Positions 24,935 through 64,000 of a stretch of DNA of 64,000 nucleotides are shown piece after piece. The stretch is taken from the NCBI GenBank assembly GCA_015039465.1, contig MU130623.1, positions 35,914 through 99,913 of the forward strand, read 5' to 3'. The notes beneath the pieces were generated by a model that was not told where the DNA came from, searched no databases, and saw nothing but the letters and a program-made list of their open reading frames with translations. Position 1 is the first letter of the stretch. Every line of letters begins with the position of its first letter. Source of the stretch: Phlegmacium glaucopus. Its lineage: Eukaryota; Basidiomycota; Agaricomycetes; Agaricales; Cortinariaceae. A program made the position numbers and the translations under genes.

Positions 24935-26293
24935 TTAAGTAATTGTCCCCTCCGACCATACTAATGAGCGACCCTGGCGGTCCACCACATTAACACCAAG
25001 TTCCATAATATCATCAAGACATAAACTGAGAGCGTGAGGATGTGCACGTAGTGCTCGGATGTTCGTTTGATCCGTAAAACAGAGTGTTTTTACCGATCGA
25101 ACATATGATAGGAAATCATGGATGGCTTTCAAGAATTCGTACACAGAAGGCTTGGAAAGTCGAGAGGCAGTGACCATGATACCCAGCGTGTGAACGTTCT
25201 TTGGAAAGCAGACGATTATCGGTATCTGCCAATCATAGATGACAAAGTCCACTCGTGTCAACCTTTCGCAATTGAGCGTTATCCTTTGAATGACTTTATT
25301 AAACGCGAACATGATATCGTGGTCGTCAGGGTATGTTTTCAAGCAATTGATTTGAACGGACGTGAGCTGGGGCTCCATCTTTGAAGGAAACTCATAATGA
25401 AGGGCGGAATCAATCTCCGGCATTAGAAAGGTCACATCGTATATTGCGTGGCGAATATTAGGAAAGTCAATATTCGAGAGTTGATTTTCATCATATGATT
25501 CTGATTGATCTGTGTAGCAATGAACGTAAATCGATTTTAGCGAGTTGAGGACAAGATGCGGATTTCCAAGCTTGGTAAGAGCTACTGGCGCATTAATTGC
25601 TTCGAGCCGTGGGTGATTCATCAAAAACGATGCCCAACTGTTGGGGGACGGTCCGAGTCTACCGTAACAGTTCAGGAATCGGAGAGTATCACGACAAGCA
25701 TTAGTTGCTTGCAAGACATTCTCAGGAAGATAATGGGAGGCTTTGTAGCCAAGGCCGAAAACCGCGAAGGTCAAAATGCGAAGGTTGGGTAGTCGGTTGA
25801 GAATGTCTGCGAGAATATCCATTATTGCTCCTGGGTCATCGGTTCGGTCATGCATGTGGACATCGAGGCGTCGTGTCAGCGATCCAATAGCATGAGGCAG
25901 TTCCTGCGATCCTACAGCATGTTCAGAACGTAACATGCCGTCGCGTAATGGGGCAAGAACTCTTCCCTTTCCAAGAAAGATGTATTCGAACAAAAATGGA
26001 GATGCGATGTAATACCATGCCTTACAGACACGAACAAGACATCTCTTCGTAACCTTATGGGAGTTGGGTGAGATGTCGTCCCAGAAAGGGGAGAAGACCA
26101 CGTTGAAACTTACAAGTGATCTCTTGAATTCCCGTAACTGCGCCCAATACAAAGCATCGCATCCGGGAGAAATCATTAATTGTGGATTATATATGTCTGT
26201 AGACCATGTGGCAAGCTGAAATATTGACGACCATATCTCTGGAGGTAGATGAGGGAGATCGATGGCCACACGATAATGCTCTTTCACTGACAT
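24935..26293 (-). CDS. F-box protein, copy 1 of a local family
   Basis: An intronless frame of about 452 codons from MSVKEHYRVAIDL (26293). The F-box-like start LPPEIWSSIFQLATW is followed by VTKRCLVRVCKAWYYIASPF, a common Agaricomycete arrangement. The rest looks like degenerate leucine-rich repeats (ILNRLPNLRILTF, HPRLEAINAPVAL, NVHTLGIMV). It probably acts as a substrate adaptor of an SCF ubiquitin ligase, by family. It is about 85-90 percent identical to the gene at 28736-30079 and ends with a slightly longer C-terminus. Confidence 0.75.
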   Translation of the reverse strand: MSVKEHYRVAIDLPHLPPEIWSSIFQLATWSTDIYNPQLMISPGCDALYWAQLREFKRSLVSFNVVFSPFWDDISPNSHKVTKRCLVRVCKAWYYIASPFLFEYIFLGKGRVLAPLRDGMLRSEHAVGSQELPHAIGSLTRRLDVHMHDRTDDPGAIMDILADILNRLPNLRILTFAVFGLGYKASHYLPENVLQATNACRDTLRFLNCYGRLGPSPNSWASFLMNHPRLEAINAPVALTKLGNPHLVLNSLKSIYVHCYTDQSESYDENQLSNIDFPNIRHAIYDVTFLMPEIDSALHYEFPSKMEPQLTSVQINCLKTYPDDHDIMFAFNKVIQRITLNCERLTRVDFVIYDWQIPIIVCFPKNVHTLGIMVTASRLSKPSVYEFLKAIHDFLSYVRSVKTLCFTDQTNIRALRAHPHALSLCLDDIMELGVNVVDRQGRSLVWSEGTIT

Positions 26294-26929
26294 TAACACG
26301 AGTGCCACCACTTCCTGGCTAGTCGCCGTCCGCCTATCGTCTCAGGAGAACAAGAGGAACTATTGTCTCCTGTCGTGTAAGAACTGCTCGCACTGTTGTT
26401 CGACGGATAGCGCTCCCTTTCCCTCTCATCTTGTTTTGAACAACAAGTGTACTAGTATTATGTACGATTTAATAAAATGTTTTGATCATTTTTTCATATG
26501 CCTGTTTCCATAACTGAAAAAGACCAGGACTTGTTCATGCCATGCAAAAGCACTGGTCTACACTGCCAAGTCTACCAGTGATTTGGGATTGTCGGGCACG
26601 ATACGACAGGGCTACTTGGGTATGTCAGTTGTAATCTAAGGACACCGTCAACGGTCAATGTCTGCCGCTGGTTTCACAACTGATTCCCTGTCGATGTGTC
26701 ATCTATAGAAGGGGGACATTATTGAGTAGACGGTTGTACAGTTGTTGTAGTTTCGCGTGGTCAAGCAAGGATTTGAAAAAGCTTTCACAATAGTTGCACA
26801 GTGGTCACCAAATCTGTAACCTTTAACTGGATATGTGAAGTCTGGTCATACATCGAGGGATATTTAAATGGAGCGATAAGGGCAAATGGGGAGTGGTATC
26901 AAACTTATACATGAAGCACAGAGGTGTAC
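26294..26929. other. Intergenic, no supported gene
   Basis: Spacer between F-box copy 1 and the kinase-like gene. Nothing recognisable was seen. Confidence 0.5.
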
Positions 26930-28735: not shown

Positions 28736-30079
28736 TCAACTGTGTAATGGGCGACCCTCGCGGTCTACCACTTTAACACCAAGTCTCATAATATTATCAA
28801 AACATGAACTGAGAGGGTGAGGATGTGCATGTAGTGCTCGGATGTTCGCTTGATCCGTAAAACAGAGTGTTTTCACCGGAAAATATGATAGGAAATCATA
28901 CACGGTTCTGAAGAATCCATACACAGAAGGTGCGGAAATTTGAGAGGCGGTGACCATGATACCCAGCGTGTGAACGTTTTTCGGAAAGCAGACGATTGTC
29001 GGTATCTGCCATTCATGGATGACAAAGTCCACTCGTGCCAACCTTTCGCAATTGAGCTTCATCCTATGAATGACTTTATTCAATGCGAACATGGTATCAT
29101 GGTCCTCAGGGCACATTTTCAAGCAATTGATTTGAACGGACCTGAGCTGGTGCTCTATCCTTGAAGGAAACTCATAATGAAGGGCGAAATCGAGCTCCGG
29201 CGTTAGAGAGGTCACGTCGTATATTGCGTGGTCAACATTAGGAAAGTCAATGTTTGAGAATCGGTCTTCATCACATTCAAGTTGTTCTGACCGATCTGTG
29301 TAGCAATGAACGTAAATCGATTTTAGCGAGTTGAGGACAAGATGTGGATTTCCAAGCTGGGTAAGAGCTACTGGCGCGTTAATTGCTTCGAGCCGTGGGT
29401 GATTCATCAAAAACGATGCCCAACTGTTGGAGGACGGTCCGAGTCCACCGTAAAAGTTCAGGAATCGGAGAGTATCACGACAAGCATTAGTTGCTTGCAA
29501 GACATTCTCAGGAAGATAATGGGAGGCTTGGTAGCCATGGCCGGAAAGCGTGAAGGTCAAAATGCGAAGGTTGGGTAGTCGGTTGAGAATGTCTGCGAGA
29601 ATATCCATTATTGCTCCTGGATCATCGGTTCGGTCCCGCATGTGGACATCAAGACGTTGTGTCCGCGATCCAATAGCATGAGGCAATTCCTGCAATCCTG
29701 CAGCATGTTCAGAACGTAACATGCCATCGTGTAGCGGGGCAAGAACTCTTCCTCTTCCAAGAAAGATGTATTCGAACAGAAATGGAGATGCGAGGTAATA
29801 CCATGCCTTACAGACACGAACAAGGTATCTCTTCGTAACCTTATGGGAGTTAGGTGAGATGTTGTCCCAGAAAGGAAAAAAGACCAAGTTGAAACTTACG
29901 AGTGATCTCTTAAATTCCCGTAATTGCTCCCAATACAAAGTATCACATCCGGCAGAAACCATTAATTGTGGATTATATATGTCTGTAGACCATGTAGCAA
30001 GCACAAATATTGACGACCATATCTCTGGAGGTAGATCAGGGAGATCGACGACCACGCGATAATGCTCTTTTGCTGACAT
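28736..30079 (-). CDS. F-box protein, copy 2 of a local family
   Basis: An intronless 447-codon frame from MSAKEHYRVVVDLPDLPPEI. It is co-linear with the gene at 24935-26293 and highly similar throughout, with substitutions spread along the protein rather than clustered. It ends earlier, at EGRPLHS, where copy 1 continues with VWSEGTIT. Having both reading frames intact after this divergence suggests that both have been kept by selection. The proposed role is SCF substrate recognition, by family. Confidence 0.75.
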   Translation of the reverse strand: MSAKEHYRVVVDLPDLPPEIWSSIFVLATWSTDIYNPQLMVSAGCDTLYWEQLREFKRSLVSFNLVFFPFWDNISPNSHKVTKRYLVRVCKAWYYLASPFLFEYIFLGRGRVLAPLHDGMLRSEHAAGLQELPHAIGSRTQRLDVHMRDRTDDPGAIMDILADILNRLPNLRILTFTLSGHGYQASHYLPENVLQATNACRDTLRFLNFYGGLGPSSNSWASFLMNHPRLEAINAPVALTQLGNPHLVLNSLKSIYVHCYTDRSEQLECDEDRFSNIDFPNVDHAIYDVTSLTPELDFALHYEFPSRIEHQLRSVQINCLKMCPEDHDTMFALNKVIHRMKLNCERLARVDFVIHEWQIPTIVCFPKNVHTLGIMVTASQISAPSVYGFFRTVYDFLSYFPVKTLCFTDQANIRALHAHPHPLSSCFDNIMRLGVKVVDREGRPLHS

Positions 30080-61124: not shown

Positions 61125-62147
61125 CTACACTTCATTGTCACTCTCACTGTCAACAAGGTGATCCCAGGAAAATTCTTCACTATCACCATCATTCTCAAGC
61201 TCAACTGCCACCATACCTTCAATATCCTCCATCTCCTCTTCAACCTCTGCTGAAAAAATTAGTGCTTGAAAGTCCGGTTAGGTCCGGTTATTTGGTGCCC
61301 AGGGGCTCTAACCGAGACCGAGACCGGTTAGGCTTCGTTCCCAAACCCAAAATAACCTAACTGGACCGAAAATAACTGACCAAAACCAGTTAGTTGCAGT
61401 TACTAACCAGTTAGGACCGAAAAAATGAAAAACCGGTTATAACCGGGCAAGACCATACATATTTCTCTCAATAAAAATTATTTCCACGCATCGTAGCTTT
61501 AAAATGAGCCCAAGAACGCTAAATTTGATGAAGAATTGACAAAGCTATGATAATATTCTTGAAAGTCTACTTTTGGCCAATATTTTAAAGATTTGACCAT
61601 AACTCAGTCAGATTTTTAGCGTTTCTCACGTTTTTGGGTGCGTTCTAAAGGGGTATAATAGGGTCGTTTATAACCGGTTATAACCGGTTTTTTAACGGTT
61701 AGCTAACCGCAAAATAACCGGTTATTTTATTTTCAGAATCAACTAACCACTAACTGCGGTCCGGTCTTTTTGCGGTTAGGTCCGGTCCAGTCTTGGTTAT
61801 TTTCCGGTTAATTAACCAGACTTTCAAGCACTAGAAAAAATAACCTCCCGGAAAATAAGATCATTGTGATACAAACATTTAAGGCATTGCAAAGCTTCAA
61901 CAATGTTCCCTTTTAGTTGGTTGCGGCGCTTGCTAATTGTGATCCCAGCCGAGGAAAAAGCCTGCTCACTTGAAACTGATGATGCCATAATAGCAAGATA
62001 GTCACGAGCCAGGGAAGCCCATGTTGGATAGCGGTGCGCATTAAGCTGATGTCATTGAATGTGATTAGCTTTCAGATGTGATAAGATTTTATGAACATAA
62101 CATACCCCCCACCATTGTACAGTTCCCATATTGTCTGGGACGGTGTC
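61125..62147 (-). pseudogene. hAT transposase, C-terminal exons (dimerisation domain), split by insertions
   Basis: Exon 62106-62147 codes VPDNMGTVQWWG. An intron (GTATGT...CATCAG) at 62046-62105 is followed by LNAHRYPTWASLARDYLAIM, ASSVSSEQAFSSAGITISKR and LKGNIVEALQCLKC, the classic hAT C-terminal dimerisation domain. A 574-bp MITE (61260-61833) interrupts it. Removing the MITE and one 8-bp duplicate restores the frame into an acidic tail (AEVEEEMEDIEGM...) ending at 61125. At 62147 a solo LTR interrupts it again. The upstream exons are found, in reversed polarity, at 62478-63918. Confidence 0.9.
61260..61833. mobile_element. hAT-type MITE, 574 bp, inserted in the transposase gene
   Basis: Terminal inverted repeats are TAGTGCTTGAAAGTC(C/T)GGTTA (20 of 21 identical). 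Perfect 8-bp target duplications GAAAAAAT lie at 61252-61259 and 61834-61841. The subterminal regions are packed with CCGGTTA/TAACCGG. There is no coding capacity. Confidence 0.95.
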
Positions 62148-62470
62148 TGTTAGGGGACACCCGACTTCAACCCAAACCTCAACCTCAGAATCATACACCC
62201 CACCTTTCTGACGACCTCCGACCTTCCATCCAACTCCGCTTCCGTCACAGCTTTACTCCGGAACCCCATAGTTCCGCTCCGACTCCGATCCTCCATTTCA
62301 CTCCATCTTTTATTTCTATTTTTCACATCACACCACTTCTTATTTTATTAATTAATTATTATTGTATCATTCCTTTATTTCTTTTATATCTCCGTTATGT
62401 CCATATTAGTACTTAAACACCCCCAGCCTAGCAGGGATCCCCATCCTTTCCTCTTTGGATCCCCTGCTAG
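62148..62470 (-). mobile_element. Solo LTR, correctly oriented part
   Basis: On the minus strand the LTR ends ...GTGTCCCCTAACA at 62148, followed by GACAC (62143-62147). Its other end, TGTTAGGGCAACTG, preceded by GACAC, is found in reversed polarity at 63919 (complement reading). Together they give a TG...CA LTR of about 356 bp with a 5-bp duplication and no internal region. The right part of this segment holds a hairpin formed by CCTAGCAGG(G)ATCC copies (about 62428-62471). A Copia-type origin is a guess. Confidence 0.75.
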
Positions 62471-64000
62471 GTAAGTCAAAAATAAATACTAGAACCTGAG
62501 TTCCTCCTTTTGGAACTCTTTGCCTTCTTCCAACTACGTAACTTCAACTCACCCCTCCTTACCCTTGCTCATCCTTACAAGACACTAGATGAAAGTCATA
62601 CAGTAAATAGACAAGAGTTACAAAACCATAAATTAAAGGCAGACAGTATATCGTGCGACTATTTCGGGTTGTTCGGAAGAGCCGAAGTTGAAGTGGTAAC
62701 AACGTGTTACGAGAAGGTCGTCAACTTGGGGACGTGTATCGAACCTCGTTTGTTTATCTTTTGGTCTTCGTATGAGGGAACGTTGTACGGTACCTTCGTC
62801 GTTGACATCATTCGTTCTCGTTATGGTAGTTTTTTGTCGAAGACTGAGTCTACGAGTGTTTACTCGATGCCTCATTAGGAAGGTTTGCTGACACAGTATT
62901 GTGCGTCTATGATTGTATAAGAGTAACTTCAGGATGTAGGAAGTTTCTTCTACAACGTAAAGTCCTTTATGACCTTCCACCTGGTCGAACTACTGTAGGT
63001 ATAAGAGGACTTTCTTTTCCATACAAATATTAACACTTGGTATATCATATTATATGAATATATAAAAATCAAACTTCTCGTGATGTTTGTAGACATATCG
63101 TTGTGAAGATACCGTAGTAATCGTGTACAGCGTGACGGATTCTTCTGGTCAGCAAACCTTCCTAATGAGGTACGAGTAAATCTCTGACTGAGTCTTCGAC
63201 TTTTTCTACCATTACTATAATGACTGTTGTCGAGACTTGGTACCTACCGTTCCCCATACGTGACCGTTTGATGCCGTGGGTTGGAACCCTCCCCCCCCCC
63301 AGTCAGTCGGGAATTTGTATAAAAAAAATCCTGAAATAAAAACGGTTTTTACACCAAGGACCCATTTCAGATACATCTTTAATCTGTATAACGTAGTAAA
63401 AATAGATCTTACTTGGGTAAAACTCGTTTTATTATAGTTAAAACGTGTAATAATAGTTTTTCGATTCAGTGTACATTGTTTTTATCCGGTAACAACTCAT
63501 TTAGTCACGGAAAGAGAGAGAGATTCGTAACAGTTTCAGATTTAAACGTTTAACTAACATTTAAAGAATAAAAGAAGATCAAAAGAAATGATTTACTTAT
63601 AGTGAAATCATAACAGAGTGTACGGTTCCTGATGAACCTTCTGGTTGTCCTTCAACCAAAACACTACTACTTGTGTTTTTCTACACCCCATATACCAACC
63701 CTCAGTTTTCACCACTGTTTTTCTAATTAATTTAAATTTAAAATAATTTTTTTTGTATTTTATATTAATATATTTAGTACACTGGAAGGATTAATCCGTT
63801 CACCCCCCTCCCAGGACCCTCGGAATTTACGTTTTTTGTTCCAACACATCGACTCAAACACGTACGTATGGGGAACTACCTACCGGTTTAAATTAACCAT
63901 GGACTTATGATAACTGTGACAATCCCGTTGACACTACGACTGAATCAGTTCGATCGTCCCCTAGGTTTCAATTATTATAAAGTCTTTTCTATAGATGTTT
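62471..64000. other. Block apparently written in reversed, uncomplemented polarity
   Basis: Read left to right as the plain complement, this stretch holds hAT transposase exons: KEENLEKRKK and LSGEEWERVGMFCDLLS (to 62596), a 56-nt intron GTATGT...ATATAG (62597-62652), HADKAQQAFSASTSPLLHNA, VLHPSKKMLHFRKYWKVDQL, a second intron GTATGT...TTTTTAG, FEEHYKHLYSN and SEPWM. Neither true strand codes for anything recognisable. By hand count 62641-62880 has 21 CpG and 3 GpC, against 7 and 18 in the adjacent hAT exon (61842-62056). One frame slip near 62950 and an inverted partial duplication show that the transposase itself is also decayed. Confidence 0.85.
63249..63876. mobile_element. hAT-type MITE, 628 bp, inside the reversed block
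   Basis: In complement reading the ends are CAAGGGGTATGCA and TGCATACCCCTTG, with 8-bp target duplications ATGGATGG at 63241-63248 and 63877-63884. Excising it joins SEPWMA to KFNWYLNTIDT in frame, the expected hAT sequence. The interior is AT-rich and non-coding. Confidence 0.8.

Follow-up and report, generated by a model that had tools for sequence, protein, structure and literature searches.

Does the end of this stretch of the Phlegmacium glaucopus genome contain DNA that truly runs against the polarity of its neighbours, or only text that has been written backwards? The window, by which we mean the whole 64,000-nucleotide stretch analysed, closes with a block that a sequence-only reading had placed at 62471..64000, described as reversed without being complemented, and ascribed most probably to an assembly or gap-filling error. 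Its right-hand limit, 64000, stands; the continuity of an LTR across the junction 62478/62479 moves its start to 62479. The block so delimited is string-reversed transposon DNA and not a reverse complement. A scaffold gap of 1,220 Ns (C223:99914-101133) begins directly after its last base, at the very end of the window, just where the suggestion of a gap-filling error would place it.

The polarity of the block is most readily seen from what it matches in its own 60.5-Mb genome. As written, 62471-64000 finds itself, 25 places that have some of its last 87 bases in common with it (matches of up to 86 bp, all to the end of an LTR), two further shorter matches within the same LTR end, and a weak internal repeat of its own (2 rows). 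Neither the written block nor its reverse complement gives a long match to normal-polarity relatives anywhere in this genome. The reversed text, as the sequence-only reading anticipated, aligns with C240 over 771 bases at 93% and with C128 over 628 bases at 97%, and further with C164 (95%) and C9 (94%); all of its long matches lie between 86 and 97% identity and span hundreds of bases. When 40 reversed 1,522-base stretches taken from window positions 1-60000 served as a control, a single one of the 40 matched the compared loci, and that was the start of the window aligning with a mirrored block in L032/L008. Chance is excluded. The real strands had been said to encode nothing known, and the longest open stretch in the written polarity of the block indeed has no relative in a search of public proteins. 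The internal repeat consists of 62769-62892 and 63148-63260, which are inverted relative to one another at 76% identity within a short hAT stretch of the block; this could reflect a genuine duplication, or patching could have gone wrong here a second time. At the other end of the window, the repeat at positions 1-370 recurs in mirrored form in L032 (C241), within the block next to the gap, with 85% identity over 373 bases.

Composition provides a second line of evidence. The inverted CpG/GpC ratio first noticed in hand counts covering part of the block persists in the full count, with CG:GC at 60:11 in 62479-64000 and GT+AC:TG+CA at 233:156. The background consisted of 1,188 overlapping stretches of the same length from window positions 1-60900. 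CG/(GC+1) is 5.0 in the block against a background maximum of 1.39, and (GT+AC)/(TG+CA) is 1.49, a ratio that attains at least 1 in 26 of the 1,188 stretches and never exceeds 1.06; in 15 normal-polarity loci the respective maxima are 2.12 and 1.15. The composition score and the HMM are nevertheless coarse: L034, L036 and L038 scored normal throughout despite the mirrored LTRs within them, 3 of 27 background stretches of 1 kb score negative, and several gap edges flip sign between 300 and 1,000 bases. The HMM set the boundary in the window at 61268 and was dropped as too coarse for exact block limits.

Turning 62479-64000 back in place joins LTR position 83 to position 82 and produces a 413-bp solo LTR with ends of the TG..CA type (TGTTAGGG..CCCTAACA), flanked on both sides by GTGTC (Table 1). 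The LTR was searched for with turned-back text from the window itself, to which independent copies of full length, in L028 and L029, align from one end to the other at 92-93%. L011, a normal-polarity locus on C240, runs colinear to the turned-back sequence (96% over 161 bases, 95% over 42 and 93% over 771); it carries one copy of GTGTC, at 2288-2292, and neither the LTR nor the 628-bp MITE-like insert. This insert has normal-polarity relatives in L012-L018, and its ends and duplication were read by eye in the turned-back text, where CCATCCAT occurs twice. Reversal in place, and not complementing, is what restores this order, and the earlier propositions that the target duplications agree and that the block belongs to a hAT element with its C-terminus to the left are borne out by the paired GTGTC and by the colinearity with L011. 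That C-terminus had been placed at 61125-62147. The dimerisation region does lie there; the coding part is interrupted, in that a 574-bp MITE-like element splits it just beyond the dimerisation region.

Table 1. Features at the right-hand end of the window, in window coordinates.
Feature	Position	Strand	Basis or remark
String-reversed block, uncomplemented	62479..64000	.	1,522 bases, from LTR-internal break to edge of 1,220-N scaffold gap
Solo LTR, normal-polarity part (positions 413 to 83)	62148..62478	-	LTR alignment
Solo LTR, mirrored remainder (positions 82 to 1)	63919..64000	.	LTR alignment; adjoins gap
Target-site duplication GTGTC, left end of solo LTR	62143..62147	.	Single copy in C240 locus
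GTGTC, second copy, mirrored	63914..63918	.	Read in turned-back text
Mirrored 628-bp MITE-like insert	63249..63876	.	Ends CAAGGGGTAT/ATACCCCTTG, 8-bp duplication CCATCCAT
Mirrored central part of hAT transposase gene (exons and introns)	62479..63248	.	Colinear with L011 at 93% over 771 bases
hAT C-terminal dimerisation region, normal polarity, same element	61827..62051	-	PF05699, E 8.8e-15
MITE-like element, 574 bp	61260-61833		Ends TAGTGCTTGAAAGTC, 8-bp duplication GAAAAAAT on both sides

Within the block itself, the intron borders of the hAT gene were read by eye. Pfam scans found no family in the turned-back block (three pieces and a spliced 202-aa fragment) or in five pieces from turned-back blocks, and the L011 fragment scores 18.9 bits against PF05699, under the cut-off of 21.4. 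The 202-aa fragment has two matches among public proteins, namely P0054 (ENA source), at 52% identity over 29% of the query, and P0055, a protein of the same species; neither was assigned to a family in a Pfam scan (P0055 at E 0.01). Consequently, the identification of the block as hAT rests on its colinearity with L011 together with the weak similarity to P0054. In the protein table, P0055 is nonetheless listed with PF27039. Elsewhere in the window, two similar minus-strand ORFs, 24935-26311 (458 aa) and 28736-30079 (447 aa), are apparently paralogues, and some relatives of the latter from other Agaricomycetes bear the name F-box domain-containing. A protein of the window matches Phlegmacium glaucopus entries, at best with 90% identity and full coverage.

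The mirror reversal is not peculiar to this locus. It is found at dozens of other places in the assembly, a recurrence that goes beyond anything the sequence-only reading had proposed. With up to 2 mismatches allowed, a 29-letter tag of the LTR occurs at 412 places in normal polarity and at 24 mirrored ones (24/436), the latter compared with about 1.6e-6 expected by chance in random sequence; a 30-letter tag of a second, unrelated LTR occurs at 691 normal and 36 mirrored places (36/727), and for both tags pooled the mirrored proportion is 60/1,163, or 5.2%. Longer pieces behave likewise. On C109, a 1,000-base piece cut from the mirrored block has 17 matches when reversed, 4 of them full-length at 92-95%, as against three, besides itself, when taken as written (92% over 265 bases, 65% over 876 and 66% over 381). 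A piece of the block on C219 (L037) has about 40 matches over 324 bases as written, which spoke against mirroring until its LTR was found 691 times in the opposite polarity. The sequences affected comprise the two LTR tags, hAT, the MITE-like insert and other sequence, and hence no single family. Homologues of the window's block in its written polarity, foreseen as counter-evidence, were found for the LTR end only, and these are mirrored relative to the 412 normal copies. At 8 of the 10 sites examined they form part of a block extending to a gap.

These 10 sites cover 11 of the 24 mirrored places of the first tag and were viewed in 10-kb stretches on C223, C109, C241, C24, C170, C205, C201, C219 and C138 and in 3-kb loci on C125; C254, available as 3 kb only, was left out. 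The block reaches an N gap on C223, C109, C241, C170, C205, C201, C138 and C125, and no gap lies within the 10 kb examined on C24 (L033) or C219 (L037). On C170 (L034), C205 (L035) and C138 (L038) the LTR is cut short and the block ends, on the side of the gap, in the mirrored rest of that LTR, an anatomy that copies the window's; the junctions fit to within a few bases in the first two loci and after a 10-base shift by eye in L038. In L038, moreover, the mirrored 303 bp are an exact mirror of the normal LTR across the gap. The broken LTR and a complete one flank a gap on C138 (L038:3066-9156), and would represent a young element if both belong to one element. In the gapless L033, a 47-bp mirror repeat (98%) links both ends of the block, which is what a reversed patch retaining its anchor overlap would give; other mirror matches, which pair normal with mirrored repeats in L032, L033, L037 and L038, weaken this argument.

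Scored by composition, 18 gap edges reveal a mirrored edge at 10 of 11 gaps, in a sample biased by the fact that 8 of the 11 were reached via a mirrored LTR. The 7 gaps with both edges scored have exactly one mirrored edge each over the longest stretch scored, as expected from one-sided extension. Five 10-kb loci were picked by normal LTR tags instead: three contain no gap or mirrored call, and the other two (L041 and L043) have a gap with one side mirrored by composition, where the evidence from homology is weak (126 letters in reversed against 94 in written polarity, and 464 against 221). The far side of the C223 gap is of normal polarity, with 834 of 966 letters homologous as written and none reversed among the compared loci. 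That this right side is also mirrored had been hinted at by the composition of its first 600 bases, and was rejected on the written polarity of its homology. Three other right-hand gap sides have mixed homology, mainly as written (978 against 362 letters, 981 against 76 and 576 against 194).

The block is thus reversed in place, abuts a gap at its edge and has counterparts elsewhere in the genome assembly, and with a probability of roughly 94% we regard it as a software artefact of gap patching and not as a feature of the genome. Short-read contigs tend to end in repeats, and here one would have ended inside the repeated LTR at 62478. An extension of this contig end into the scaffold gap, derived from long reads, would then have been entered in the wrong string order. 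Its consensus may have been built on the opposite strand and complemented but left unreversed, or it may simply have been reversed; complementing an opposite-strand consensus without reversing it would spell the true extension backwards, between the contig end and leftover Ns that stayed behind it. The true order would be left contig, turned-back block, gap, and the same fault would have struck many other gap edges of the assembly. An extension in the wrong order would account at once for reversal in place, adjacency to one side of a gap, breaks within repeats and independence of sequence family. Of the possible faulty steps, the complement without reverse is the one we infer, and PBJelly is the probable patching tool.

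Cortinarius glaucopus is the same fungus as Phlegmacium glaucopus. The part of PMC7550596 available to us names C. glaucopus and describes JGI assembly of Illumina reads by ALLPATHS-LG, as well as hybrid assemblies patched with PacBio reads by PBJelly, among which that part does not name C. glaucopus itself; PMC8480192, likewise in part, gives JGI methods for other genomes. The accessible portions of PMC6191289 and PMC6733440 have no relevance to a reversed-patch artefact, and among the matches listed in a literature search, as far as their text was available, none gave an account of string-reversed gap-fill sequence. Gap filling of the PBJelly type similarly extends one gap edge and leaves the remainder as N, a one-sided extension that is frequent according to the portion seen of PMC7757076; it differs from the present case in that the sequence added here is string-reversed. 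The same text operation, reversal without complement, yields the decoys of bioinformatics benchmarks (PMC11099658, in the section available), although those are deliberate, whereas this block stands in a public assembly. An ordinary misoriented assembly segment also lies in the wrong orientation between a contig break and a gap, but it is reverse-complemented and remains a valid strand, while the block corresponds to neither strand of its relatives.

Other explanations must be weighed against a reversed patch. The nearest is an error of software or file handling that reversed text in the same manner elsewhere in the process, during assembly, scaffolding or submission. The mirrored blocks of L033 and L037, which have no gap in the stretch examined, would suit it. 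Yet the breaks fall at repeats inside stretches of sequence and run to leftover Ns on one side of a gap, where mishandled files should rather show entire contigs or records reversed, and we consider this account improbable. More doubtful still is complementation in place, for example through colour-space decoding, instead of reversal in place. The two differ only by strand, so that a database search is blind to the difference; only reversal, however, makes the LTR whole and restores both target duplications and the hAT order, and complementing gives pieces that are misordered and misoriented.

A genuinely mirrored DNA, arising by some unknown process at transposon-rich sites where assemblers break, and perhaps spread by transposition, might be entertained in view of the numerous mirrored tags (24 and 36 places) and the occurrence of full-length mirrored LTRs. 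Against it, two unrelated LTR families share the same low mirrored proportion; the blocks contain portions of a hAT gene, a MITE-like insert and further sequence as well; and their ends at four sites are N gaps and LTR-internal breaks and not the ends of elements. These block edges speak for software, and the exact mirroring of a normal LTR across the gap in L038 likewise counts against mirror DNA. No polymerase or recombinase is known to join strands of opposite polarity, a further objection that leaves this account with a minute probability. The narrower idea that the mirrored LTR transposes as a family of its own was rejected, given that hAT and MITE-like sequence is mirrored alongside it and that blocks end inside LTRs at gaps. 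Least credible of all is an ordinary inversion, or an inverted transposon insertion, misread as a mirror. Inversions are common in repeat-rich fungal DNA, but the reverse complement that they give would appear in a search of both strands, and the written block finds only the mirrored LTR end and its own repeat, the long matches coming from the reversed string.

The interest of the reversed patch lies in data quality, and as a matter of data integrity it deserves to be reported. In a public assembly, two abundant LTR tags have about 5% of their copies (60 of 1,163) standing backwards, and a simple scan, comparing a repeat tag with its own reversed text, suffices to detect them. Should the fault sit in a gap filler that is in wide use, it may also affect other hybrid assemblies that went through the same patching. 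Reversed text matches only other mirrored text, and so lowers repeat annotation and breaks transposable element genes. It also gives rise to spurious orphan ORFs and mirror repeats, and studies of transposable element age or of unique sequence could be misled by it.
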